From positions 1 to 64,000 of the forward strand of contig CALAOT010000105.1 of NCBI GenBank assembly GCA_937889545.1: DNA of 64,000 nucleotides, written 5' to 3'. Below the pieces are notes generated by a model. That model was not told the DNA's origin. It made no database searches and saw nothing but the letters and a program-made list of their open reading frames with translations. Shown here piece after piece: positions 23,951-41,094 of this stretch. Source of the DNA: an uncultured Opitutaceae bacterium (GTDB lineage: Bacteria > Verrucomicrobiota > Verrucomicrobiia > Opitutales > Opitutaceae). The position numbers were made by a program, and so were the translations under genes. The first letter of the stretch is position 1; the number at the start of each line of letters is the position of its first letter.

Positions 23951-24193
23951 TCAATTGCACCCGCAACCCGGCCCCCCGATGCCCCGGCCGCCCTGGGCCG
24001 CCTCGCGCGAGAAGTAGACATGCTCTAACATCGCGGTCGCAAGCGCATCGCGGTTCGGGTCCATGGTCGGGTCTGAAAGGAGCCCGCGCTCCCAGGGCTT
24101 CGCCCGGACCGCCTGGGCCGTCGTGCATCCGGAAAATGCGCCCGCGATAGCGACGAGGGCGGAGAACAGGAGTATCCTTGCTGGTTTTCTCAT
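23951..24193 (-). CDS. DUF4266 small lipoprotein
   Basis: An 80 aa lipoprotein. A signal peptide (RKPARILLFSALVAIAGAF) ends in the lipobox FSGC, so Cys23 is expected to carry the lipid anchor. The mature part has KPWERG, the DUF4266 hallmark, then a HVYFSREAAQGG segment and a C-terminus that is Gly/Cys-rich and ends CGCN. The start overlaps the stop of the TlpA-like gene (ATGA), indicating translational coupling. DUF4266 genes are, from memory, found together with TlpA-like thioredoxins, DUF3570 outer-membrane proteins and ApbE; three of these four are present here. The function of DUF4266 is unknown; the terminal cysteines could be a redox or metal site. Confidence 0.9.
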   Translation of the reverse strand: MRKPARILLFSALVAIAGAFSGCTTAQAVRAKPWERGLLSDPTMDPNRDALATAMLEHVYFSREAAQGGRGIGGPGCGCN

Positions 24194-24696
24194 GGTGTCT
24201 TGTCCGACAGCAGGGCCTCGATCTCCCTCCGCAGCGCCTGCTCCGTCGCCGCTCCACGGAATCCCGGATGCGCATACCGCACCCTGCCTTTGCGGTCGAT
24301 CAGGTAGCTTGTGGGCATTGTGGGCACCTGCACCGCGCGAACCAGGTTTTGGCCCTTGTCCAGCGCGACAAGGAAGGGCGGGGAGAACTTCCTGACGAAG
24401 GACTCGTAGGCCGAGGCGTCCTCGTCGACGCTCACGGCGACGATCACCAGGCCCCTCGGCGCGAACTCCGCGTTCAGCCGGCCATATGCGGGGAAGGACG
24501 CCTTGCAGGGAGCGCACCAGGACGCCCAGAAATCGACGAGCACCACCTTGCCGGCCGTATCGGGCAGCGTTCCACCCGCCAGCCCGGCGGAGACGAGGGG
24601 AGGGAAGACGTCTCCGATGCCGACGGCGGCGCCGGCAAGAGCCGGGGACGCGAGCGAGAGGCCGGCCGCAAGGGAAAAGAGACCGGGTCTGTTCAT
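24190..24696 (-). CDS. TlpA/ResA-like periplasmic thioredoxin
   Basis: A 168 aa protein with a signal peptide (SLAAGLSLASPALA) and a thioredoxin fold. The redox motif WCAPC sits in LVDFWASWCAPCKASFP, and the cis-Pro loop is TMPTSYLID. Proteins of this type reduce specific periplasmic disulfides, for example during cytochrome c or metal-site maturation. It lies between the DUF3570 outer-membrane gene (75 bases upstream) and the DUF4266 lipoprotein gene (overlapping). This suggests it acts on one of these partners; the Cys-rich tail of the DUF4266 protein is an obvious candidate substrate, which is inference. Confidence 0.92.
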   Translation of the reverse strand: MNRPGLFSLAAGLSLASPALAGAAVGIGDVFPPLVSAGLAGGTLPDTAGKVVLVDFWASWCAPCKASFPAYGRLNAEFAPRGLVIVAVSVDEDASAYESFVRKFSPPFLVALDKGQNLVRAVQVPTMPTSYLIDRKGRVRYAHPGFRGAATEQALRREIEALLSDKTP

Positions 24697-24771: not shown

Positions 24772-25929
24772 CTACCAGGATATCTTTGCGCCAAACGTGA
24801 TGATGTTCGCCCGGGGATATGCGCTCTGTGGAGTGATCCCATCGCGCCCGCGCATGGTGTAGCGGTCGCAGGCGACGTCGAGCTGAAGCCAGTCGCGCGG
24901 CTTCCAGACCGCCTTGAGCCCGTAGGTGGTGGTGAACAAGGAGGACAGGCGATAGTCTGAGGAATAAGCCGGCCCGCTTGGATTGGGTGTCGTGCTCGGG
25001 ACGATGTCCGTGGTGCTCAGGTCATAATAGAAGAATTTCGCGGCGTTCTGCTCGTAGTACCTCAGGTCGGGCCCCACGGTGAACCGGTCGCCGATCTTCT
25101 GCAGCCACTGCAGCTCGACCGTGTTCGCCCTCACCCCATACGTGTCCCCGTAGAACCGGTAGCTCCCCTCGAGGGCGCCATGAGCCTCCGGGAAACCCCT
25201 GTTTATCGACGCAAACACGACGCCCGTGTTGTGCTCGCTAGGCCTGTTCTCGGCGAAGACAAGCGGGAAGAACACGCCCGGGATAACCTCAATGTTCTGC
25301 TCCACGAGCTTGTACTGGTCGCTCAGGTACCCGGTCTCCCTTCCCCAAGCCAGATTCAACGTCACCGTGGTCCGCGGATCGAGGATCTGGGTCACGCCCA
25401 TGATCGCGTTGAACGAGTGCTTTTTGACGTAGATACGCTGGGGGTCGTAGAACGTCTCGACGTCGTCGTCGTGGCCGGCAACTCCCACCAGCAGCGTGGT
25501 GTTCTTCTGGTCCAAGTCGGTAAGAGTATTCAGGGACCAACCCGTGGAAATGTAGTCGTGCTCGCGGCTCTCCGAGAGCCCGGCAGAGATGTTGATGGCG
25601 CTGAACTGCCGCGAAAGGTCGGTCTCCCAGGCTTTCCTGTGGTCGCTCAGGTGGGCAAGGGGCACCTGGTCCGAACCCGCGGGAGCGGGTAGGCCCGTGG
25701 GTGTTGCGCCCGCGATCGCATCGGTCACCGCCGTCAGCCCAAGCCGCATGTCGGCGCCGATCTCCTGGTTGGCGACGATCCCCTGGGTCTGGACGCCGAC
25801 GCGCCCGCCAGCCTCCGTGTAATTCTCGTATTTGTAGGAGAGCGAATCGTCCGAACGGGCCGCAGGGCGTGGAGACGCCACGAACAGGAAAATCGCGAGC
25901 GGGATCGCGCCGGGTCTTCGTTGGATCAT
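24772..25929 (-). CDS. DUF3570 outer-membrane beta-barrel protein
   Basis: A 385 aa protein with an N-terminal signal (LAIFLFVASPRPAARS). The mature part starts SLSYKYENYTEAGGRVGVQ and ends in a transmembrane beta strand finishing in Trp (IITFGAKISW), as outer-membrane barrels do. Alternating hydrophobic strands and aromatic residues continue throughout. It matches the DUF3570 family as I remember it, including the WSLNTLTDLDQKNTTLL stretch. It heads the minus-strand group with TlpA-like and DUF4266 genes. The function is unknown; the context points to an envelope redox role. Confidence 0.85.
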   Translation of the reverse strand: MIQRRPGAIPLAIFLFVASPRPAARSDDSLSYKYENYTEAGGRVGVQTQGIVANQEIGADMRLGLTAVTDAIAGATPTGLPAPAGSDQVPLAHLSDHRKAWETDLSRQFSAINISAGLSESREHDYISTGWSLNTLTDLDQKNTTLLVGVAGHDDDVETFYDPQRIYVKKHSFNAIMGVTQILDPRTTVTLNLAWGRETGYLSDQYKLVEQNIEVIPGVFFPLVFAENRPSEHNTGVVFASINRGFPEAHGALEGSYRFYGDTYGVRANTVELQWLQKIGDRFTVGPDLRYYEQNAAKFFYYDLSTTDIVPSTTPNPSGPAYSSDYRLSSLFTTTYGLKAVWKPRDWLQLDVACDRYTMRGRDGITPQSAYPRANIITFGAKISW

Positions 25930-26375
25930 CTAGCTGGAACGGGTAATCAGCATTGGACCGTCGAACATGCAATAGGTTCAAAAAAACCAGATGCATCGCA
26001 TGGAAAGGCCGTATTGCGATGAGCGAAGAGAGTTATAGCCACGAATACCTATCACCTTGGCACCTGTTGATGAATTTGCCGTGAATACCAGATGAATTTC
26101 CGTTCATCTACTGAAATTCGGCAGCCCATTTGCATGCTGCACGAATGCATCCGGAAGAATGCTCTAATTCCTGCTGGAGTGTATCCTTGGAACGCCCTAC
26201 TTGCCATTTGACCAGGTCACGGCACCAAGACGATGCGAGGCAATGGTACGGAACGGCCAATTAAACTTTTCGGTCGCAGTATTGCCGAGACAACCCCTCT
26301 GTTTTTATAGTCCCAGTTTCCCCTCCATTGAATGCGCCGCAAACCCTGGCATAGAATTAAGTCACAAAGGACAAT
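25930..26375. other. Divergent intergenic region
   Basis: About 445 bases between the DUF3570 group and the two-component operon, both transcribed outward, so it should hold both promoters. It is more AT-rich than its surroundings. It contains a GATGAA-N6-TTCATC inverted repeat (26091-26108) and another GATGAAT at about 26069. The two-component gene at 26376 has AAAGGA about seven bases upstream of its ATG. I could not single out a confident -35/-10 pair. Confidence 0.5.
26091..26108. promoter_or_regulatory. GATGAA/TTCATC inverted repeat
   Basis: GATGAA, six bases, TTCATC: a perfect six-base dyad in the intergenic region shared by the DUF3570 group and the regulator-kinase operon. A related dyad with seven-base arms lies at 28401-28418, ahead of the PAP2 gene. 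The shared half-site GATGAA(T) makes it a candidate site for the OmpR-type regulator encoded at 26376. Confidence 0.35.
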
Positions 26376-27041
26376 ATGAAGATTCTTGTCGTCGAAGACC
26401 AAAGCCGCGTGGGCCATTTCGTGGAAAAGGCACTCGCAGAACAAAACTACTCGGCACGGATCGTTGGCACGTGCGCCGCTGCCCGCGACGCACTGAGCGA
26501 GTCTCCTTATGGGGCAGTAATTCTCGATATCGGCCTTCCTGACGGCGATGGCCTTGATCTTTTGCAGGAATGGCGGAGCGCCGGTTTCAACGAACCGGTA
26601 CTCATCCTAAGCGCCCGTGACGCCGTTGAAGATCGTATCCGAGGCCTTAACTTGGGGGCTGATGACTACTTGGCTAAGCCGTTCAGCGTCGACGAACTCC
26701 TAGCACGGGTGCGATCGCTTCTTCGGCGGCACGCCGGCGCAAAAACGTCCGTACTTGTTCACGGCTCTTTGCAACTCGACCTTATGGCCCATACCGTTAC
26801 GCGAAATGGAGTTCGCATCGATCTGACCAGCCGCGAATTCTCATTATTGGAATTGTTTCTTCAAAATCCGGGCCGGATTCTCACGAGGAGTCTGATCGCC
26901 GAAAAGGTCTGGGAAGCAAGCTATGACATGGAGACGAATCTGATCGATGTCTATGTGCGGCGCCTCCGGCGGAAATTGGAGGAATCACCTGACCGACCGC
27001 TGATCAAGACGATACGCGGCACTGGCTACGAACTGGTGTGA
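26376..27041 (+). CDS. OmpR/PhoB-type response regulator
   Basis: A 221 aa regulator. The receiver domain has the acidic pair in VVEDQ, the phospho-Asp in AVILDIGLPDGDG (near residue 51), the LSARDAVEDR switch region and the Lys in DDYLAKPFS. The C-terminal winged helix (LTSREFSLLELFLQNPGRILTR, VDVYVRRLRRKLE, TIRGTGYEL) is the OmpR DNA-binding domain. The stop overlaps the start of the histidine-kinase gene by four bases, so the pair is translationally coupled. A dyad-symmetric box upstream could serve autoregulation. Confidence 0.95.
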   Translation: MKILVVEDQSRVGHFVEKALAEQNYSARIVGTCAAARDALSESPYGAVILDIGLPDGDGLDLLQEWRSAGFNEPVLILSARDAVEDRIRGLNLGADDYLAKPFSVDELLARVRSLLRRHAGAKTSVLVHGSLQLDLMAHTVTRNGVRIDLTSREFSLLELFLQNPGRILTRSLIAEKVWEASYDMETNLIDVYVRRLRRKLEESPDRPLIKTIRGTGYELV

Positions 27042-28405
27042 ATTCATTCACAGCCAGGATCATGGTGCAGTTTGCCGTGCTTGTCACGGTGACCATGGCC
27101 GTTGTCCTCGCGACAGGCGGGTGGCTCCTGTCGCGCGAGGCGGTCAACGGCCTGGACCTGTTAAATCAAGCTGAGTATGTCGAGATCCGCGACCGGCTGG
27201 AGCCGAATCCAGCCGCTCTTTCGGCCGCGGATATTGATCGGCGCGTTCGAGCGCACACCGAGGTCGATGCCGCTCTCTATTTTTTCCAGATTCATAATGA
27301 CACAGGAACCTTGCTTTTCCGCTCTGCGAATCTCGGCCGGGCGGTCCTGCCCGACCTCAGTGGAGGGGTTCTCCAAAGAACCTATGAATTGGCCGGCGTC
27401 GGTGAGGTCCGACTTTGCGAATTCTACTATGGCCCACTGCATGTCCAGATCGCCAGTCCTCTGTCTCCGGCAAACCGGCTCTTGAGAGACTACGCTCGCG
27501 TGAGCCTTTTTCTGCTTGGCGGCGTGGCATTCATTAGCGTGGGCCTCGGCTGGGCATTTGCCCGGCTCACGTTGCGGCCGGTACGGGCGATTCACGACAC
27601 GGCGGCCCGCATCCGGGCTGACAATTTCGGGGAGCGGATTCCCGTTCCAGCCGGCCATGACGAACTAGCGGCCTTGGCTCAGCTTCTCAATCGGATGTTC
27701 GACCGTCTGGAGGCGTCTTTCATCCAGATAAAGCGTTTTACGGCCGATGCTTCACACGAAATCAAGACTCCGCTGGCACTGATGCGCCTTAATGCAGAAA
27801 GACTTCGGCCTAAGCTTGCTGCCGACCAGGAAGGAAGTGCCGCTCTGGGAGAAATCCTTGAGGAAATCGAAGGCCTTCGCCGGATCACTAATAGCCTGCT
27901 TTTCCTCGCCAAGGTTGAAAGCGGCACATTTGCGCTGACCAGGACCGAGGTAGTCGCCGATGCACTTGTCCGCGGCTTCGCCGAGGACGCGATCGCCTTA
28001 GCCGACGATTGCGCTGCTCGTTTTGAGGTTACCCGATCCGATGCCGGCGGGGTGCGTTGCGAACCCACGCTTATTCGTCAACTGCTCCTTAACCTCACGA
28101 CCAATGCGCTTCGCGCATCGCCGAAGGGCGCCTGCGTCGAGCTCGAGTCAATTATCGTCGATGGATTGTGGCGGCTCGCCGTAAAAGATGAAGGGCCTGG
28201 GCTGCCCCCAGACCAACTCGAAAGGGTGTTTGAACGCTTCGTGCGTTATTCACCCTCAAATGGCCGATCGGAGTCTAAGCCCGGCCATGGCCTCGGCCTG
28301 GCCATCTGCCGAAGCATCGCAACGCTCCATGGCGGCACCATCCGAATTGAGAATCGGCCAGCCCGGTCCGGCTTATGCGTCGCCGTAGAGTTGCCTCAAG
28401 GATGA
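27038..28405 (+). CDS. Sensor histidine kinase, CusS/QseC-like
   Basis: A 455 aa membrane kinase (GTG start overlapping the regulator stop). A first transmembrane helix (residues ~8-31), a ~120 residue periplasmic sensor region without known motif, a second transmembrane helix (~155-178) and a HAMP linker precede HisKA, where the acceptor His is in DASHEIKTPLALMR. The HATPase has LNLTTNALRASP, VKDEGPGLP and GHGLGLAICRSIA. The signal is unknown. In the CusS group it is often metal ions, but membrane lipid or redox state is also possible given the PAP2, YceI and cytochrome genes that follow. Confidence 0.93.
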   Translation: MNSFTARIMVQFAVLVTVTMAVVLATGGWLLSREAVNGLDLLNQAEYVEIRDRLEPNPAALSAADIDRRVRAHTEVDAALYFFQIHNDTGTLLFRSANLGRAVLPDLSGGVLQRTYELAGVGEVRLCEFYYGPLHVQIASPLSPANRLLRDYARVSLFLLGGVAFISVGLGWAFARLTLRPVRAIHDTAARIRADNFGERIPVPAGHDELAALAQLLNRMFDRLEASFIQIKRFTADASHEIKTPLALMRLNAERLRPKLAADQEGSAALGEILEEIEGLRRITNSLLFLAKVESGTFALTRTEVVADALVRGFAEDAIALADDCAARFEVTRSDAGGVRCEPTLIRQLLLNLTTNALRASPKGACVELESIIVDGLWRLAVKDEGPGLPPDQLERVFERFVRYSPSNGRSESKPGHGLGLAICRSIATLHGGTIRIENRPARSGLCVAVELPQG

Positions 28406-28418
28406 ATAATAATTCATC
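28401..28418. promoter_or_regulatory. GATGAAT/ATTCATC palindrome ahead of the PAP2 gene
   Basis: GATGAAT, AATA, ATTCATC: a perfect dyad with seven-base arms that overlaps the kinase stop codon and lies ~56 bases before the PAP2 start. It may be an operator for the downstream genes or a short AT-rich hairpin. It shares its half-site with the dyad at 26091. Confidence 0.4.
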
Positions 28419-28473
28419 TGTTATTCACGCGGTGTTCATGTGTGACCACTAAGCTCGCGGTCGTTTTGCGACC

Positions 28474-29373
28474 GTGACCGTGTCTCTAATTCGCCGTCCG
28501 TATTTGCGCCTCCTGGCGATGCTCTGCCCAATGTCGTTGATAACGGCCGCGGGCGCCTTGCGCGCGGACCCGACTGTGCCTGCGGCCCCTGACCTGCCAA
28601 TGACGAATATTACAGGGCCGACCAGGGAGGCCCACGGATCGCGGCCCGATCACTTATGGACTGTCGATTACCTCGATCTCTTGTGGAGCGATACGGGAGC
28701 CATACTGACCGCCCCGGCGCGCTGGGATCAAAGCGATTGGCTCGAGGCCGGACTTGCCGGTGCCGCCGTTGGCGGCACGGCTGCGTTTGACAAGACCGTG
28801 AACGACAGCGTGCAGGCGCACCGCACTGCAGGCGAGGACCGGTTCATGAAACAATTCCAGAACTTCGGATCCGTATGGTCGTTTGGCGTCATTGGCGCCT
28901 TCGAGGTCTGGGGCGAGGCAGACGGCGACGTCACGGCAAAGAACGCCGCAATGGACGCGCTCACCGCCAGCATCATAGGCCCGGGCCTGATCGGGACCGG
29001 GCTAAAGGAGGCGGTTGGGCGCGTGCGGTCCAATTCCGCGACGCGGACCTTTGTGTTCAAACCTTTCAGCGGTAATCAATCTTTTCCCTCAGGCCACACC
29101 TTCCAGGCCTTTACCGTCGCCACAGCCATCGCGGAGAGCTATCACGCCTGGTGGGTTCAGGTTCTCTGCTACGGATCAGCCGGCCTAGTTGGCTATGCCC
29201 GAATCGAGCAAAACGCCCACTACGCGAGCGACGTGATGGCCGGAGCGCTTTTGGGATGGTCTATCACCCGGGGAATCGCCCGTCGACATGACGCGCCAAA
29301 CCCGAAACGAATCAACTGGGCACCCTACACGGATGGAACGCATGTCGGCATTGTCATATTCAAATCGTACTGA
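28474..29373 (+). CDS. PAP2-family phosphatase, exported
   Basis: A 299 aa protein with a GTG start and signal peptide (LAMLCPMSLITAAGALRA). The three PAP2 catalytic motifs are present: K-x6-R in KEAVGRVR, PSGH in QSFPSGHTF, and R-x5-H-x3-D in RIEQNAHYASD. Enzymes of this family remove phosphate from lipid phosphates such as undecaprenyl-pyrophosphate or phosphatidic acid on the outer face of the membrane. Unlike many relatives it has few strong transmembrane helices, so it is probably periplasmic or peripheral. It follows the two-component pair and overlaps the beginning of the frameshifted YceI gene region. Confidence 0.88.
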   Translation: MTVSLIRRPYLRLLAMLCPMSLITAAGALRADPTVPAAPDLPMTNITGPTREAHGSRPDHLWTVDYLDLLWSDTGAILTAPARWDQSDWLEAGLAGAAVGGTAAFDKTVNDSVQAHRTAGEDRFMKQFQNFGSVWSFGVIGAFEVWGEADGDVTAKNAAMDALTASIIGPGLIGTGLKEAVGRVRSNSATRTFVFKPFSGNQSFPSGHTFQAFTVATAIAESYHAWWVQVLCYGSAGLVGYARIEQNAHYASDVMAGALLGWSITRGIARRHDAPNPKRINWAPYTDGTHVGIVIFKSY

Positions 29374-29413
29374 CAATCCGACTCTGTGGCTCTCGTATGC
29401 TCGCTGCATCGCC

Positions 29414-29925
29414 ATGATGGCGGCACTGCGATGCGCCGTAGAGGCTCGTGCGGCAGGCTCATCCCTGCTGATTGGCAAGTCCCAGTCGCAAACCGAGATC
29501 CTCGTCAATGTGACGACCGGTTCGTTCGCCGCGCGACTCCAGGGCCTCGACGAGGCCATCACGGTTACCCAAGGCGGCGGGAAGATAAAGTCGGTCCATT
29601 TTCGCACGAGTTTTGCGGAGATAAGCAGATGAATCTCTGGCAGCGCACGGATCAGTTTCCACAGGTCGAATTTGTCCTGGTGTCATTCGAACCCGCGGCC
29701 GGAACAACCTATACAGCCCAGGGCCAGCTGCGCCTTCACGGCATGGAGCATCTGGTGGCTTTCCCTGTGTCGGTCACGGCTGCACCCCGCCTATGGGCCT
29801 TTGACGGCGAGGTGCCAGCAGATACCCGGAATTACAACCTGCCGATAATCACCCTGTTTGTGATGCTCAAGGTAGATCCCGTGGTGCGCGTGCGTTTCCA
29901 TCTTCAGGGAGACGTCTCTGAATGA
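29414..29925 (+). pseudogene. YceI-family lipid-binding protein gene, frameshifted or split
   Basis: Two frames together spell a YceI-type beta-barrel protein. The first (from ATG 29414 or 29342 to the TGA at 29630-29632) ends with TEILVNVTTGSFAARL and VHFRTSFAEISR. The second continues with MNLWQRTDQFPQVEFVLV, GQLRLHGMEHLVAFPV and a final VRVRFHLQGDV, the typical C-terminal half. One added base near 29625 (ATAAGC to ATAAAGC) would join them. However the second frame has its own ATG overlapping the stop (ATGA at 29630), so the halves could also be translated in succession. YceI proteins bind isoprenoid lipids or quinones in the periplasm. It ends overlapping the cytochrome gene. Confidence 0.7.
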
Positions 29926-30431
29926 TGAAAGCATACTTGATCGGCCTCGTTCTTGGAATTTGCCTGTGCCTCGCAGCAGAATTCCTCTTCTTCGTTCATG
30001 GCGGAATTCCTGTTGCCACAAAGGGTGGCCCGATGCCCTTCGAGCGGTTTTTGGCGAAGTCCGCGCTACGGTCGGCAATCGGGCAGGAAGCCCAACGATC
30101 GTCGCCCATCTCGGCTGACGAGACGAACCTGCTGGCCGGAGCCCATGTCTATCGAAAGCAATGCGCTGAATGTCACGGCGCTTGGGGGCGTCCCACCTCC
30201 GCCACCGCCATCGGCATGTTTCCCGCGCCGCCACAGCTGCTACCCCCCAAGAAAGGCGTCACCGACGATCCAGCCGGCGACACGTACTGGAAGGCGAAGA
30301 ATGGAATCCGGCTCACCGGAATGCCCGGCTACGCCGACTCGCTATCCGACACCGAGATTTGGCAGGTAAGCCTGCTCTTGCTCCACGCCAATGAGCTTCC
30401 GCCCATTGTCCAAGACGACCTTCGCCAATGA
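29922..30431 (+). CDS. Membrane-anchored c-type cytochrome
   Basis: A 169 aa monohaem cytochrome c. An uncleaved-looking N-terminal helix (residues 4-26) anchors it, and a linker leads to the haem motif CAECH (Cys81-His85). The likely second axial ligand is Met134 in TGMPGY, followed by LSDTEIWQVSLLL, the usual C-terminal helix of class I cytochromes. The start overlaps the YceI stop (ATGATGA), so expression is coupled to that gene. It probably faces the periplasm and passes electrons between membrane quinols or other donors and an unknown acceptor. Confidence 0.92.
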   Translation: MMKAYLIGLVLGICLCLAAEFLFFVHGGIPVATKGGPMPFERFLAKSALRSAIGQEAQRSSPISADETNLLAGAHVYRKQCAECHGAWGRPTSATAIGMFPAPPQLLPPKKGVTDDPAGDTYWKAKNGIRLTGMPGYADSLSDTEIWQVSLLLLHANELPPIVQDDLRQ

Positions 30432-30576
30432 ATCGGGCTCTTCCTGCGATGAACCGTGCAACTCTGGTGAAATGCGCCCGGAGCAGCGGCGCGCGTTTCA
30501 GCAAACTATTCACGGGGCCTTTGAACGAATTGGGTGACATGCGGGTCTATTCCCCGGTTCGCATTGATTACACGCT

Positions 30577-31431
30577 TTGTCCCCAGCAAACCTAGACGAT
30601 CCTCCCGGCGTTCCTCCGGTCGCGACTATTGCCGAGCATTATGATTCACTAGATTTCTTCTACCGGGACGTATGGGGTGAGAATATCCACCACGGTCTGT
30701 GGCTAAGGGGAAACGAAAGCCCGGCAGAGGCTGCAGAGCAGATGAGCAGCTGGGCGTTACGGCGCCTCCAGTTGAAAACCGGAATGAGCCTTGCCGATGT
30801 CGGGTGCGGCTACGGCGGTACAGCCCGTCTCGCAGCCGAGGCATACGGAGCCGATGTCGTGGGTTTCACCGTGTCGAAGGCGCAGAAACGGTACGCTGAC
30901 CGGCAGTTGGTTTCGCGCGGATCCGTGGAAATCCGCGAGCAGGATTGGATGCAGGCAAAGGTTCCCAACACATCGTTTGATGCCATCCTGTCTCTGGAAA
31001 GCATCGAGCACATGCCAAGCCGGGCTGATTTCCTGGTCGGGGTCCGGCGGGCCCTGAAGCCGGCGGGACGATTTGTTATCAACACCTGGCTTGCCGCCGA
31101 CAGGCCTTCACCGTGGTCCAGTCGGAACCTACTCGGTCCAATTTCAGTGGAGGGTCGCCAGGCACCGCTCATCACCGCTGGTGCGTTGCGCCGTATGCTC
31201 GAATCGTCCGGTTTTCCGAAGGTGCAGGTGAACGACCTGACTCACCAAGTTGCGAGGACTTGGAGCGTAGTCATCAGGCGCATGCTGATGCGCACGCTAA
31301 CAAAGCCCCGCTATTGGCGCCTGTTGCTGAACTCCAAGGTCAGCGACCGCATTTTCGCGCTGACCGCTTGCCGCATCTGGGCGGCATATCGCACGGGCGC
31401 GATGAGGTATGCAGCGTTCGTATGCCAATGA
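30577..31431 (+). CDS. SAM-dependent methyltransferase (cyclopropane-synthase/UbiE-like)
   Basis: A 284 aa class I methyltransferase. Motif I is LADVGCGYGGTA, followed by VVGFTVSKAQ and the acidic loop around DAILSLESIEHM. The N-terminal YDSLDFFYRDVWGENIHHGLW is typical of small-molecule and tocopherol/cyclopropane-type methyltransferases. The start must be the TTG at 30577, since a stop lies four codons upstream in frame and no ATG or GTG occurs before the conserved N-terminus. It opens a four-gene run with a monooxygenase, a second methyltransferase and a type III polyketide synthase, so it probably methylates a polyketide-derived phenol or quinone. Confidence 0.88.
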   Translation: MSPANLDDPPGVPPVATIAEHYDSLDFFYRDVWGENIHHGLWLRGNESPAEAAEQMSSWALRRLQLKTGMSLADVGCGYGGTARLAAEAYGADVVGFTVSKAQKRYADRQLVSRGSVEIREQDWMQAKVPNTSFDAILSLESIEHMPSRADFLVGVRRALKPAGRFVINTWLAADRPSPWSSRNLLGPISVEGRQAPLITAGALRRMLESSGFPKVQVNDLTHQVARTWSVVIRRMLMRTLTKPRYWRLLLNSKVSDRIFALTACRIWAAYRTGAMRYAAFVCQ

Positions 31432-31764
31432 GCGCAACCACAGGGACGCCATCCGCCTCTAGGACGATTCAGAAACAAAATGGCTTGCGCTCATCCCCTC
31501 AGGCGCTCCCCGCATGGCTTCGACCCCATTCTGCTTGAAAACCACATTGGCCGCCGATCCCCAGCTCCGATCCATAAGCCCTTTGTTCTCGACGCCATGC
31601 GGCACCGATCGCCCAATGCCATAAGGCGCCAACAGTATGATTGCTGGAACTTCGCCTTGGGACGTATGTCCGCAGCCGATCTCGATTAACATTCAACGAT
31701 CTGGCCCCGGACTCCGCCCTACCGAGTTGATTGTTAAATCCATAGAGAATCACCCCAGCGATCC
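31432..31764. other. Gap inside the polyketide cluster, no gene seen
   Basis: About 330 bases between the first methyltransferase and the monooxygenase. Short open frames exist on both strands (plus 31480-31689, minus 31459-31692), but I see no motif or start context. The length leaves room for a second promoter for the downstream three genes. Confidence 0.4.
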
Positions 31765-32898
31765 ATGCGCGGAAAACTGATCGTCGCAGGAGGCGGCATA
31801 GGCGGGCTGACCGCAACTCTGGCTCTGCATCGTGCAGGCATTGACGTCATGCTCTACGAGCGGGCCCCGGTGTTTGCTGACATCGGAGCCGGAATGAGCG
31901 TTTGGCCAAATGCGACGCGCGTCCTCAAGTCGCTCGGCGTCCTCGATTCAGTGGTAGGCCTCGGGGAGCCGGTCACGCAATTCAACCTGCTAAGGCCTGA
32001 TGGCATAGCCATTTCCAGGATCGCCATGGGGGGGTTCCCAACGCCCGCCCTCTGCATCCACAGGGCTGACCTGCACCGATCTCTGCGGCAGCCGCTGCCT
32101 CCATCGTGCATGGAGGCCAATCAGCGCCTCGTTTCGTTTGCGGAGGATGCCGCAGGGGTCACGGCCACGTTTGCCGGCGGCCTAGCTACCCACGCGGACG
32201 GGCTCATCGGGGCCGACGGCATCAATTCCGCCGTCAGAGCTCAGCTGCACGGAGTTGCCGATCCCGTCTATCGCGGCTATTGCATCTGGCGGGGCATCGC
32301 ACCGGCGGTCGCCGGCGTGGTCCACGGGCACATCAGCGAGACCTGGGGCTCCGGCAGGCGGTTTGGAATCATGCCCATCGGACAGGGGCGGATTTGCTGG
32401 TATGCCACGCAGAACTGCGCGCCCTGCCAGTCCGACCCGCCGGTGGGCCTCAAGCAAGCGCTGATTGAGTCATTCAGGGATTGGCATCAGCCGATTCAGG
32501 CGCTGTTGGAGGCCACCGATCCGAGCGATATCATAAGGGTCGATGCGCGGGACCGCAGGCCGCTTCGAAGCTGGGGAAAGGGCCGTGTGACGCTGTTAGG
32601 CGATGCTGCCCACCCCATGACCCCGAATGTCGGCCAAGGTGCCTGCATGGCGATTGAGGACGCTGCATGCCTGGCCAAACTTCTGCCAAGCGCGGCCACG
32701 GTTGCCGAAGCGTTCCGCTCCTACGAGGCATTGAGAATCGCGCGGACAGCAACCATAGTCAGACAGGCCCGAAGGATCGGTTTCATAGGCCAATGGGAGA
32801 ATCCCTGGATCATAAGAGTGCGCAATTATGCAACCCGCCTTGTCCTTGCCCGGACGCCCGATATGCGGCTTAACGCGGTTTATGGGTATGAGGTGTGA
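31765..32898 (+). CDS. FAD-dependent aromatic monooxygenase
   Basis: A 377 aa class A flavoprotein hydroxylase. The N-terminal Rossmann motif is VAGGGIGGLTATLALHRAG, the central DG motif is GADGINSAVR, and the GD motif is LLGDAAHPMTPNVGQGA, which together bind FAD and NAD(P)H. Enzymes of this group hydroxylate phenols next to an existing hydroxyl. It is the counterpart of SrsC in the Streptomyces phenolic-lipid pathway, where the resorcinol made by a type III polyketide synthase is hydroxylated and oxidised to a quinone. It overlaps the next methyltransferase gene by 11 bases. Confidence 0.9.
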   Translation: MRGKLIVAGGGIGGLTATLALHRAGIDVMLYERAPVFADIGAGMSVWPNATRVLKSLGVLDSVVGLGEPVTQFNLLRPDGIAISRIAMGGFPTPALCIHRADLHRSLRQPLPPSCMEANQRLVSFAEDAAGVTATFAGGLATHADGLIGADGINSAVRAQLHGVADPVYRGYCIWRGIAPAVAGVVHGHISETWGSGRRFGIMPIGQGRICWYATQNCAPCQSDPPVGLKQALIESFRDWHQPIQALLEATDPSDIIRVDARDRRPLRSWGKGRVTLLGDAAHPMTPNVGQGACMAIEDAACLAKLLPSAATVAEAFRSYEALRIARTATIVRQARRIGFIGQWENPWIIRVRNYATRLVLARTPDMRLNAVYGYEV

Positions 32899-33577
32899 TC
32901 TGTGGCGCCGACCGGCGTTGGCTTTCCAACAAATGCAGCGAAGGCTCACACCTGAGATCCTGGATTCCCTGGGGCCCGACGACCCGGCGGCCTCGCATAG
33001 CCGACGGGACCTGCGGGTCATCAACCTGCTCATGGGCAACCACCGCTGGTTTGCCCGTGTGCTGCCAGGAGTGCTGCGCGCGGACGACCGCATCCTCGAA
33101 ATCGGCGCAGGGTCGGGCGAACTCTGCCGGTTATTGACTCGCCGCGGCATGGCGACCGATGGCCTGGACCAAGTGCCCCGACCCCTGGTATGGCCGGAGG
33201 GCCGGGCCTGGCACCGGGCTGACCTCCGGGATTATGAAGGGTACAAGAACCACGAGGCTGTGCTGGCCAATCTCATCCTCCACCATTTCTCGGATGCCGA
33301 GCTTGTGAAGCTCGGGCAAAAGCTTAGGCGAGGCCCGCGACTGATATTGGCATGCGAGCCGGCTCGGCGAATGCGTTCCCAGGCCTTGTTCGCGGCGATA
33401 AGCCCCATCTTTGGGGCCAATCGCGTGACTCGCCACGATGCCAATGCCAGCATCTCAGCCGGATTTCTCGCCGACGAGCTGCCTCGCATCCTCGGATTAG
33501 ACTGCGGCCCGTGGAAGGTGAGCTGCGAGGTGACGCTCGTCGGCGCCTACCGCATGGCCGCGGTCAGGCAAGACTGA
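32888..33577 (+). CDS. Class I SAM-dependent methyltransferase
   Basis: A 229 aa methyltransferase from the ATG at 32888; an ATG at 32933 or the longer start at 32828 are alternatives. Motif I is ILEIGAGSGELCRLL, then ATDGLDQVPRPL and VLANLILHHFSD, the post-I and motif IV equivalents. The reading frame overlaps the end of the monooxygenase gene and is followed after six bases by the type III polyketide synthase, so the three are surely cotranscribed. Two methyltransferases in one small cluster suggest two positions on the product are methylated, or one O- and one C-methylation. Confidence 0.85.
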   Translation: MRCDLWRRPALAFQQMQRRLTPEILDSLGPDDPAASHSRRDLRVINLLMGNHRWFARVLPGVLRADDRILEIGAGSGELCRLLTRRGMATDGLDQVPRPLVWPEGRAWHRADLRDYEGYKNHEAVLANLILHHFSDAELVKLGQKLRRGPRLILACEPARRMRSQALFAAISPIFGANRVTRHDANASISAGFLADELPRILGLDCGPWKVSCEVTLVGAYRMAAVRQD

Positions 33578-33583
33578 ATCTTC

Positions 33584-34627
33584 ATGTACCTCCATGCTCT
33601 CTCCACAGCGGTGCCCGAACGATCATTCACCCAGGCCCAGTGCTGGGAATTCATCGAGCGCTCCCACTCCCGCCTTCGACTCACCAGGCGCTCGAGACTG
33701 ATTCTGCACAGCATCCTGCGAAACGATCATGGAATCGCAAAACGGCACTTTGCAGTTCCGGACATCGAGAATGTATTCGACCTGACGCCGGACCAACTGA
33801 ATGCGGCCTTTCGGCATGCGGCGCCCGAACTCGCCGGGAGAGCCCTCAAGACGGCTCTTGACCAGGCCGGAATTGTGGCCGCCGAACTGGACGCGCTGCT
33901 GATCTGCACCTGCACCGGCTACCTTTGTCCGGGACTGACCAGTTATGTCGCTGAGCAGCTGGGCCTGCGATCGGATGCCATTCTTCAGGACCTGGTGGGC
34001 CTGGGCTGCGGCGCCGCGATTCCTACAATCCGCTCGGCGAGCCACGTGTTAGCTGCCCACCCTGACGCGACCATCGCCTGCGTGGCAGTCGAAGTCTGCT
34101 CGGCGGCATTCTACCTTGATGACGACCCGGGAGTGCTCATTAGCGCCTGCCTGTTTAGCGACGGAGCGGCGGCAACGATCTGGCGCAGCCAGCAGCCGAG
34201 AGGAGCATCAAACGGCCTCCGATGCTTTGATTTTCAGACGCTTCACCGCCCCGCCGAACGAGACAAGCTTCGCTTTGAGACCCGCAATGGCAAACTGCGC
34301 AACCTGCTCCACGATACGGTGCCGGAGCTTGCAGCAAATGCGGCGGCGCAGCTTTGGGAGACGCGCGGCCCACGACCCGTTGCTAGGGTCGTCGCACACT
34401 CAGGAGGTCTCGACGTTCTTGAGTCGCTAGGTCGGGCTTTTCCCGGGTACTCCTTGGAGGCAAGTGCGCGGGTCCTCCGCGATTGCGGCAACATGAGCAG
34501 CCCCTCGGTGCTTTTCGCGCTCGCCGAGACGCTCAGGATGTTACCACCGGGCAGCGCCGCAGGCGACATGTGGCTCATCACCTTCGGGGCGGGATTCAGC
34601 GCGCACTCATGCCGGATTGGGGAATAA
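33584..34627 (+). CDS. Type III polyketide synthase (chalcone-synthase-like)
   Basis: A 347 aa homodimeric ketosynthase of the chalcone/stilbene/alkylresorcinol family. The catalytic triad is complete: Cys142 in LVGLGCGAAIP, His272 in VVAHSGG and Asn303 in DCGNMSSPSVLF. The GFGPG-like loop of plant enzymes reads TFGAGF here, followed by the C-terminus. These enzymes extend an acyl-CoA starter with malonyl-CoA and cyclise the chain to a resorcinol, pyrone or phloroglucinol. With a flavin monooxygenase and methyltransferases upstream in one operon, it parallels srsA-srsB-srsC. The starter unit cannot be predicted from the sequence. Confidence 0.93.
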   Translation: MYLHALSTAVPERSFTQAQCWEFIERSHSRLRLTRRSRLILHSILRNDHGIAKRHFAVPDIENVFDLTPDQLNAAFRHAAPELAGRALKTALDQAGIVAAELDALLICTCTGYLCPGLTSYVAEQLGLRSDAILQDLVGLGCGAAIPTIRSASHVLAAHPDATIACVAVEVCSAAFYLDDDPGVLISACLFSDGAAATIWRSQQPRGASNGLRCFDFQTLHRPAERDKLRFETRNGKLRNLLHDTVPELAANAAAQLWETRGPRPVARVVAHSGGLDVLESLGRAFPGYSLEASARVLRDCGNMSSPSVLFALAETLRMLPPGSAAGDMWLITFGAGFSAHSCRIGE

Positions 34628-38904: not shown

Positions 38905-41094
38905 TCAGAGCAGTTCCCCCTGCCTCGTGTCGGCCTCCTTGGAGCGGGCGCTGACGCCCAGGAACTTCCCATACCGCTCGAGCCAGTCGTCGATCTTCCC
39001 GGCGTAGTACTCGGGGTCGTAGGGCGCCGCAACCGGGTCGTACAGCGCGAGCGGCCTCGTGCGCTGCCAGTCGCTGGTGCGGCCCTTCTGCCCCGGGGTG
39101 ATGTAGTAGGCGACCCGGTCGCCCATCCTTGGCCGGGGCGAGAGCTGGAGCGCGGCCTCGGCCGAGGCGCGGCGCGGCTTGCCTCCGCCGGCGATGAAGC
39201 GCTCGTATGCGTCCGGGTTCATTCCCAGGACCTCGCTCTTTGCGACCTCCTCCACGGCGAGCGAGCGCTCGCCCAAGCCTTTCCGGTACCGTTCGAGGAG
39301 GCCGAGCGGAGACTCGCCCGACACGCCCAGGAGAAACCGGATCAGGGCGTCCGTCAGCTCCTTCAGGTACGGCTCGACGCCCCGCGACCGAAGCGCGCTC
39401 CCCCGCAAGATGACCCTGCCCGATTCGCTCAGCGCGTAGTTCTTCGCCTTGTAGCAGAACATCGCGTCGTAGCGGCCGTCGAATTCCAGCTCGATCCCGG
39501 CGGGGAGAATCGGGGCGACGCGGGCGAGGAGCTCCTCGGGGCGGTCGAAGTGCGCGTCGGAGGAGAGGTAGATCCCGTCCGTGTCCGCCTCGAGGATCGT
39601 GCAGCCCTGCCGGCTGAACTCGTCGATCAGCTGCTGCAGCAGCTCGCGGCCCCGCCGGGTGACCTCCGCCGCGAGTTCACCGTCGCCGAACCGGGCCCCG
39701 GAGAACCCGAGGTAGCCGTAGAACGAGTTGATGAGGATCTTGAACGCCCCCTGGCGCGCCTCCGCCTCGGCCCGCTCCTCCTGCTCGGGCGCGCTGCGCG
39801 CGAGCAGCTTGTACTTGAGCCGGTAGTCGAGCAGCCGCCTGAGAAGCGGGATGAACACGCCCAGCGAGTCGTCCGCCGGGTTCCTGCCTATGTTCAGCAG
39901 CAGGCTCGGATAGAGCGAGGCCACGTCGAAATGGAGCACGTGGCGGAACACGCCCTCGTTGAAGCTTCGCGTGTAGCCGCCGTCGAACGGGCGGATCTCG
40001 GGCGGCTGGGGGCAGGACTGGCGCGCATGGTAATACTCCTCGAGGAAGAGCAGGTCGATCTTGACGGTGGTTCCGCGCAGCATCGCCTCCTGGAGGGGGA
40101 TCGGGAAGGCCCGCGCCTGCTCGAAATAGGTCGGCAGCAGCAGGTCGGCGAGCCCCTGGGTCTCCCTCAGGTCGTCCTCGAGGTAGGCGCAGAAGCGAGC
40201 ACGGTCGCTCGCGAACACCTCCGCGATCCGGCTGCCCTCGATGTACGTCCGCCCCGAACCCTCCTCCTCGGTGATCCCAAAGTGTATCGCGACCTCCTTG
40301 AGGGTGTAGGAGTTGAGCTCGCGCGTCGCGATGTCGTTGAGCAGCGTGAGCAGGTACGTGTCCGCGACCGCCCGGCCCGGCAGGTCGCAGCGCGGGAAGT
40401 CGACCCAGCGCTCCGCCACCTTGAGCCGGCTGTTCCTGAACGCGGCCCGCTGGCCGAACCTCCCCCACGAGCAGGGCACGCGCCGCATCCGGCACCGTAC
40501 CCTGAGGTAGTTCAGGTCGAACTTGAAGATGTTGTGGCCCTCCACGACGTCGGGGTCCAGCGCGGCGAGCCGGGAGTTGAAGGCCAGAAGCAGGCGCTTC
40601 TCGGCAGCGTCGCTCATGTCCTCAAGGAGCAGGAGGTGGTTCTTCCCGCCCGAGCGCATCCCGATCGCAAGCACGCGGTCCCCCGGCTTCTCGGGGTCGC
40701 TGAATCCGCCGTCGGCGGATCCCGTCTCGATGTCAATCTGGCACCGGCGCAGCCTTCCGAAGCCCATGTCGCCGTACAGGCGCGCGCGGCGCTGGAGCAG
40801 GAACTGGCATTCGAGGGGCCGGATTGCGTCCACCGCAACCGATTCGCGCGCCGCCCTGAGGAGCCCGTCAAAAGCCTCGAGCGAATGGGCCTTGGCGAGC
40901 GTCCCCAGGACTCCGTCCCCCTTCAGGCGCTCGAACACGACGCCGGAGACCGGGGCGTCGAACGACGCGGAGGCCAGCCAGGCAAACGGCTCGAACGGAA
41001 GGGCCTTCTCCTCGCGCCCTCCGTCCGACAGCGCGACGCAGACCCGGGCCCGCCCCTCGCCGTCGATCCAGACGCCGCAAAGCGACCCGTCCAT
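38905..41094 (-). CDS. Family B DNA polymerase with 3'-5' exonuclease
   Basis: A 729 aa DNA polymerase of family B. Proofreading motifs are intact: Exo I D121-I-E123, Exo II N188 and D193 in NIFKFDLNYL, Exo III Y304-x3-D308 in YLEDD. Polymerase motifs are also complete: A with D390 in FDVASLYPS, B with K452 and N456 in KILINSFYG, C with D504 and D506 in DTDG. It is shorter than E. coli Pol II (783 aa) and lacks the long archaeal-type N-terminus. Bacterial family B enzymes often serve in damage tolerance or repair. A small membrane-protein gene lies just upstream on the same strand. No SOS box was recognised. Confidence 0.93.
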   Translation of the reverse strand: MDGSLCGVWIDGEGRARVCVALSDGGREEKALPFEPFAWLASASFDAPVSGVVFERLKGDGVLGTLAKAHSLEAFDGLLRAARESVAVDAIRPLECQFLLQRRARLYGDMGFGRLRRCQIDIETGSADGGFSDPEKPGDRVLAIGMRSGGKNHLLLLEDMSDAAEKRLLLAFNSRLAALDPDVVEGHNIFKFDLNYLRVRCRMRRVPCSWGRFGQRAAFRNSRLKVAERWVDFPRCDLPGRAVADTYLLTLLNDIATRELNSYTLKEVAIHFGITEEEGSGRTYIEGSRIAEVFASDRARFCAYLEDDLRETQGLADLLLPTYFEQARAFPIPLQEAMLRGTTVKIDLLFLEEYYHARQSCPQPPEIRPFDGGYTRSFNEGVFRHVLHFDVASLYPSLLLNIGRNPADDSLGVFIPLLRRLLDYRLKYKLLARSAPEQEERAEAEARQGAFKILINSFYGYLGFSGARFGDGELAAEVTRRGRELLQQLIDEFSRQGCTILEADTDGIYLSSDAHFDRPEELLARVAPILPAGIELEFDGRYDAMFCYKAKNYALSESGRVILRGSALRSRGVEPYLKELTDALIRFLLGVSGESPLGLLERYRKGLGERSLAVEEVAKSEVLGMNPDAYERFIAGGGKPRRASAEAALQLSPRPRMGDRVAYYITPGQKGRTSDWQRTRPLALYDPVAAPYDPEYYAGKIDDWLERYGKFLGVSARSKEADTRQGELL

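Follow-up and report, generated by a model that had tools for sequence, protein, structure and literature searches.

A flavin monooxygenase that appears to displace the usual oxidoreductase in an alkylresorcinol-type gene cluster of Opitutaceae

The DNA analyzed here is a 64,000-nucleotide stretch from an uncultured Opitutaceae bacterium (contig CALAOT010000105.1; hereafter the window), which carries a cluster of plus-strand genes ending with a type III polyketide synthase (PKS). We consider it probable that this cluster makes an oxidized phenolic membrane lipid, a flavin monooxygenase (FMO) doing the job of the oxidoreductase (OXR) of the usual operon, and that it does so beside a sensor pair of a stress type. 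The window FMO appears to displace the usual oxidoreductase, with about seven losses of the latter on a tree of flanking genes. Relative to the known operons, three things are new: this displacement, the removal of the usual operon in place, and a repeat operator. In the published literature on combinations of YceI, type III PKS, alkylresorcinol and two-component genes, as far as it was open to the search (most subscription papers lay outside it), no report of such an arrangement was found. Below, G numbers denote genomes, G000 being that of the window, and L numbers denote fetched loci.

Apparent displacement of the oxidoreductase by a flavin monooxygenase

In the fetched loci, the usual PKS locus mostly has the order methyltransferase-OXR-PKS, with exceptions such as G011 (OXR-PKS without the methyltransferase), and it is commonly flanked by a YqgE/deaminase-like pair on one side and a NIF3-like gene on the other, names that we assume from reading the sequences by eye. 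The window reads FMO-methyltransferase 2 (MT2)-PKS instead. To the extent that the two sources describe it, methyltransferase-oxidoreductase-PKS is also the order of planctomycete and cyanobacterial alkylresorcinol operons of the hidABC type (PMC10896814, PMC8086630).

The distribution of OXR was followed in 83 PKS-bearing genomes, namely 77 of a 150-genome sample of the family together with G005, G006, G007, G008, G010 and G011; six order-level PKS carriers outside the family (among them G038, G044, G052, G055 and G056) were excluded. OXR was searched at E 1e-25 in 80 genomes and at E 1e-10 in G003, G010 and G011, the split or partial matches in G035 and G169 being counted as present. The FMO was searched at E 1e-50 and counted at 57% identity or more, which left out two matches at 40-43% (G072, G007). 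OXR was absent from nine of the 83 genomes (G000, G004, G005, G006, G009, G057, G090, G115, G136), and in G000 there was no match even at E 1e-10. All nine carried the FMO, as against six of the 74 OXR-keeping genomes (G008, G011, G027, G029, G092, G168; p 1.5e-8, by a Fisher test that ignores relatedness). Within the 150-genome sample, the FMO occurred in 11/77 PKS-bearing and 0/73 other genomes (p 4.5e-4, same test). At eight loci (G004, G005, G006, G057, G090, G115, G136, and G168, which has OXR elsewhere) OXR is gone from between the methyltransferase and the PKS, both neighbours being kept. A tree was built from three flanking proteins of 30 genomes, the PKS-less G001 and G012 not being scored as losses; it requires seven changes to account for OXR absence, in three genera and always in FMO carriers.

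The best solved relatives of the FMO are, by name, urate-, nicotinate-, salicylate- and 4-hydroxybenzoate-type flavoenzymes. Since it stands apart from the PKS in most genomes that carry it, the FMO might act on a substrate that is not made by the PKS, its tie to OXR loss reflecting shared ancestry. We regard this as very unlikely, given seven losses on the tree in three genera with FMO carriers throughout, and an FMO without a PKS in none of the 150 genomes. The displacement pattern names the FMO as the expected enzyme for the oxidoreductase's step, and makes the two proteins comparable on one substrate.

The usual locus of G000 is still present on the same contig, where the operon has been excised and a PKS trace remains, about 20 codons from the end of the gene, 35 kb beyond the window's PKS (L057:10085-10144; contig C105 about 70084-70143). 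The usual operon was also cut out in G009, G012 (with a weak trace of the PKS end) and G001; in G001 and G012 no PKS was found elsewhere in the genome at E 1e-60. Both G000 and G009, emptied at the usual locus, carry an FMO-type cluster, and the window cluster stands in for the removed usual operon of G000.

The PKS itself scores over the cut-offs for FAE1_CUT1_RppA and Chal_sti_synt_N, and its Cys142, His272 and Asn303 are invariant in nine aligned sequences and in register with solved Pks11 and 1u0m. It reaches 120.2 bits against the NCBIfam DpgA (3,5-dihydroxyphenylacetyl-CoA synthase) equivalog, whose cut-off is 425, and is not assigned to that family. The predicted structure (mean pLDDT 46) was not used for any fold assignment. 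In a set of 57 genomes, 30 had a full-length match (E 1e-94 or better), and in the 150-genome family sample 77 had a match at E 1e-60 or better, the window's own genome being included in both counts; relatives are up to 76% identical over the whole length, and four named ones (73-74%) come from Opitutus/Opitutae MAGs. By analogy with the planctomycete PKSs of such operons, which, as summarized in PMC10896814, made pentadecyl- and heptadecylresorcinols in Corynebacterium, the window PKS would make a 5-alkylresorcinol from a long acyl starter. Second PKS copies were seen in G168:C11 (L162) and G097:C72 (L163), the first being only partly matched. In a search of plasmids the best relative was a Caballeronia plasmid PKS, 41.6% identical to the window's; on the plasmid of Caballeronia sp. 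SBC2 (L166:7001-11708) the gene order is PKS-methyltransferase-FAD oxidoreductase-ACP-ketosynthase, where ACP is acyl carrier protein.

Genes of the cluster

The cluster comprises the following genes.

26376..27041, + strand: OmpR/CopR-type response regulator (Pfam Response_reg/Trans_reg_C)
27038..28405, + strand: sensor histidine kinase (Pfam HAMP-HisKA-HATPase; H-box at residue 239)
28474..29373, + strand: PAP2-family phosphatase (Pfam; PSGH motif)
29386..29925, + strand: broken YceI gene (Pfam YceI, C-terminal half only)
29922..30431, + strand: small membrane-anchored c-type cytochrome (Pfam; CXXCH at residue 81)
30577..31431, + strand: methyltransferase 1 (MT1), CMAS-like (Pfam CMAS, Methyltransf_11)
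31765..32898, + strand: FMO (Pfam FAD_binding_3)
32933..33577, + strand: MT2, common to the usual operon (start revised from 32828)
33584..34627, + strand: type III PKS, predicted alkylresorcinol synthase (Cys142-His272-Asn303)

All nine plus-strand genes named in the original prediction between 26376 and 34627 are present, and Pfam supports their family names. The predicted overlaps of regulator with kinase and of YceI with cytochrome proved to be 4 bases each, and the 145-base gap ahead of the synthase block (30432-30576, between cytochrome and MT1) was confirmed; a second gap of 333 bases lies inside that block, between MT1 and FMO. Judged from relatives, MT2 most likely starts at 32933 and not at 32828, so that it does not overlap the FMO gene; its Pfam match (E 1e-4) falls under the curated cut-offs. 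The PKS triad, the flavin motifs of the FMO, the kinase H-box and the cytochrome haem site are all intact. A scan for promoters and terminators yielded about as much as shuffled sequence. MT1 was ruled out as a core gene by its presence in only two of the 150 family genomes, the other copy being 41% identical.

The frameshift predicted for YceI was borne out. By our reading of alignments with six relatives, the gene has lost some 25 bases from a conserved stretch, where its frame also changes, which rules out a one-base error as the cause. The in-frame part corresponds to profile positions 70-149, the N-terminal part is encoded in the frame of 29288-29632, and no one open frame holds the whole lipocalin domain. 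A second, intact YceI is present on contig C41 of the same genome.

Among 16 FMO loci in 15 genomes, YceI lies within about 0.4 kb of the FMO in seven (G009, G011, G092, G027, G029, G005 and the second copy of G136), and the same cytochrome c is divergent from it in three (G004, G006, G008). Neither is found at G168, the first copy of G136, G115, G057 and G090, where the contig stops 359 bases past the FMO; in the window both share one run with the FMO, neither being adjacent. Relatives of the window cytochrome occur in 12 of the 150 family genomes, its own included. The 11 elsewhere in that sample stand in mixed surroundings, and only the G004 copy adjoins an FMO, as do those of G006 and G008 from another sample; G033, G097 and G166 have a common set of unnamed neighbours, and in G021 a weak MT1-like gene (34%) lies near the cytochrome relative. 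A conserved PAP2-YceI-cytochrome operon with the PKS was set aside, as it was not seen in the fetched loci of relatives.

Sensor pair and repeat operator

In G009 and at the second PKS copy of G011, a kinase-regulator pair is divergent from the genes ACP-FMO-YceI-MT2-PKS (the G009 ACP being of the PP-binding family). The window regulator is 70-73% identical to those of G011 and G009, and the window kinase falls into one clade with their kinases (support 98/96, 13 rows); the MT2 tree groups the three loci weakly, together with G136 (62/79). The two blocks of the original prediction, which was to fall if they never co-occurred in other genomes, are therefore found together elsewhere. The sensor-YceI-PKS link is real in the family and is rearranged in the window. 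PmrAB- and CopRS-type systems are among the best family matches of the pair, but both proteins remain under the NCBIfam cut-offs (regulator, cztR_silR_copR, 226.8 bits against 279.2; kinase, 204 against 292.55), and neither is assigned to the heavy-metal CopRS/CzcRS family.

A repeat was first spotted by eye upstream of the regulator and of PAP2. It is 40 bp long and consists of TGAA repeats at an 11-bp period plus an inverted TTCA half-site. The two copies and the genes facing the first of them are as follows.

26069..26108, + strand: operator 1, ahead of the regulator and the divergent DUF3570 gene (55.7 bits)
28401..28440, - strand: operator 2, ahead of PAP2, overlapping the last bases of the kinase gene (55.2 bits)
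24772..25929, - strand: DUF3570 gene, divergent from the regulator across operator 1
24190-24696, - strand: thioredoxin-like gene, next in the set facing operator 1
near 23951-24193, - strand: DUF4266 gene, last of that set

A 17-base version of the pattern, drawn from the two window copies themselves, has two exact copies in the window and three occurrences with up to three mismatches, against 0.16 expected. A matrix built from five seeds found five further sites in kinase loci. With the resulting ten-site matrix, leave-one-out scores were 36.6-54.1 bits, while 30 random 64-kb sequences with the dinucleotide composition of the window gave no score above 10.0 bits; the sole other place of 12 bits or more in 1,148,309 bases of loci scored 13.1 (L135). 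In G009 and G011 the operator lies between the regulator and the ACP gene. Elsewhere it stands immediately upstream of YceI (L093, L097, L099, L100), ahead of PAP2-sulfatase (L098) or at the start of a sulfatase gene (L092); at the kinase loci without a site (L094, L095, L096, L101), the DNA ahead of the operon is cut off or nearly so. A weaker operator of G009 (37 bits, L035:6040-6410) is followed by a reading frame of 93 residues, which may encode a small regulated protein. PMC8238504 describes the DUF3570-thioredoxin-DUF4266 set in connection with flavin-based extracytosolic redox systems; ten reading frames were scanned here, and none of them matched ApbE.

Further kinase loci were taken as the ten best of 43 matches (52-58%). 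A FixO/cytochrome-type gene adjoins the regulator in eight of them (BLAST grouping, with Pfam checked on two), and YceI is in view in six. In the fullest, L097, the order is PAP2, YceI, polyprenyl synthase, MacB/LolCE-like permease, ABC ATPase, a protein with weak likeness to COX1, a small protein, the FixO/cytochrome gene, regulator and kinase. At the remaining two loci (G015, G114) there is a gene of the sulfatase family that matches LtaS best among NCBIfam models, far under the cut-off. An operon of the L097 type is conserved in several Opitutaceae (L097:7774-16999; L100:2-9595; also L093, L096, L099 and L101), and we know of no name for it.

Proposed product and control

In the pathway that we favour, the PKS would build a long-chain alkylresorcinol, MT2 and perhaps also MT1 would methylate it, and the FMO would hydroxylate the ring in place of the hidB-like oxidoreductase, yielding an alkyl-hydroquinone or -quinone membrane lipid. 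Hierridin B has such an extra ring hydroxyl (PMC10896814), and one cyanobacterial cluster is noted to have an oxygenase and no oxidoreductase; the authors of that paper name srsC as the sole other stand-alone hydroxylase known to them in a type III PKS cluster (PMC8086630). According to PMC9113575, YceI lipocalins are able to bind ubiquinone-8 and have a link to cytochrome b561. In G009 and G011, the module is divergent from an envelope-stress-type pair with the presumed operator of that pair in between, which the regulator would bind upon a signal received by the kinase. The window shows a reshuffled version: the pair reads in the same direction as the synthesis genes, one operator stands at the regulator/DUF3570 junction and the other ahead of the PAP2-YceI-cytochrome block, and downstream of these come the synthesis genes, possibly reached by read-through. 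A readable operator together with its sensor could help to identify the stress under which the lipid is needed.

Several observations weigh against this reading or, in points (v) and (vii), against the original prediction. (i) Five OXR genes in genomes without the FMO have one internal stop (G147, G126, G002, G088, G089), and if they are recounted as losses the association falls to p 2e-5, in tests that, as said, take no account of how the genomes are related. (ii) What the planctomycete oxidoreductase does is itself undecided: the study could not assign it, and the function of alkylresorcinol operons in planctomycetes and their kin is open (PMC10896814). (iii) In neither the PKS nor the FMO tree do the three kinase-linked loci form one clade, so that the cluster may have been assembled more than once. 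(iv) Upstream of MT1, the FMO and the PKS, the window has no operator that reaches 8 bits, and usual PKS loci and stand-alone FMO loci lack any that reaches 12. (v) PAP2-YceI-cytochrome stands beside the PKS in no other fetched locus, the window PAP2 not having been searched in whole genomes, and MT1 is nearly private to this genome. (vi) Neither the relatives' ACP gene nor a remnant of it was found in the window; with the broken YceI, this suggests that the window copy may be decaying. (vii) The genes beside related kinases resemble envelope genes.

The sixth point, along with the usual PKS operon already gone from the genome, would fit a remnant whose product is no longer made. This seems unlikely to us, as the catalytic and cofactor motifs of the PKS, FMO, kinase and cytochrome are intact, a second YceI is whole, and the PKS is up to 76% identical to its relatives along its whole length. 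It is more conceivable, though we lean against it, that the sensor-PAP2-YceI-cytochrome block and the PKS block are chance neighbours, the latter with its own promoter. The 145- and 333-base gaps, the missing operator upstream of the PKS block, the near-private MT1 and cytochrome relatives that are mostly away from PKS and FMO would all agree with this; against it stands the same kinase clade beside FMO-YceI-MT2-PKS in two genomes, with the operator at the junction. The original prediction is partly supported. The kinase clade and that operator speak for control of the cluster by the two-component pair, and control of the window PKS genes themselves might come by read-through. For one module speaks the pairing of the FMO with YceI (7/16 loci) or the cytochrome (3/16); against it speak the broken YceI, the near-private MT1, the PAP2-YceI-cytochrome arrangement and the PKS and FMO trees.

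Nearly an even chance is given to a third explanation, namely a structural, permeability-lowering phenolic lipid made under envelope stress, which carries no electrons and which the FMO merely tailors. Alkylresorcinols elsewhere are membrane components that affect antibiotic sensitivity. Operators of related kinases precede YceI operons with the polyprenyl synthase and MacB/LolCE-like permease, or PAP2/sulfatase genes, and the NCBIfam names at these loci (lipid-A PAP2, LtaS, LolCE) are best matches, all below cut-offs. The repeated pairing of the FMO with YceI or a c-type cytochrome, and the FixO/cytochrome-type gene in eight of the ten kinase loci (Pfam checked on two), speak for a redox role instead. 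Because the genes beside related kinases look like envelope genes, a respiratory quinone was set back as first choice, and a phenolic lipid under envelope stress looks at least as likely. We also offer, as a doubtful speculation, that a single family of envelope-stress sensors in Opitutaceae, recognizable by a fixed 40-bp operator, controls two kinds of operon: a YceI-polyprenyl-synthase-transporter-cytochrome-oxidase-like one and, in a small group, a YceI-alkylresorcinol-FMO one. A stress-induced membrane redox lipid would then have exchanged its polyprenyl tail for an alkyl tail made by a polyketide synthase; YceI would be the carrier in either case, and an unrelated flavoenzyme would have taken over the oxidizing step on several occasions.

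Among known systems, srsABC of Streptomyces griseus resembles the window in having a type III PKS, a methyltransferase and a stand-alone flavin hydroxylase (FAD_binding_3-type in the window), a likeness in gene composition; it is not known to include a sensor pair or cytochrome. Relatives of the window PKS and MT2 occur in the gene order of hidABC-type operons (PMC10896814, PMC8086630), whereas the window has the FMO for the oxidoreductase and, in addition, the two-component pair, PAP2, broken YceI, cytochrome c and a second methyltransferase; this likeness is one of gene order. The pentacistronic operon of 'Saltatorellus ferox' shares two methyltransferases and a lipid/isoprenoid-binding protein gene before the type III PKS, but the passage describing it names no FMO, sensor pair or cytochrome (PMC10896814). 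The BcnA/LcoA peroxyl-radical system likewise ties a YceI-family lipocalin to a cytochrome, with a quinone ligand suggested; as far as its description goes (PMC9113575), the cytochrome is b561 rather than c-type and there is no PKS, and the window YceI is broken. Beyond the cluster, the window contains a family B DNA polymerase gene (Pfam) at 38905-41094 on the - strand.

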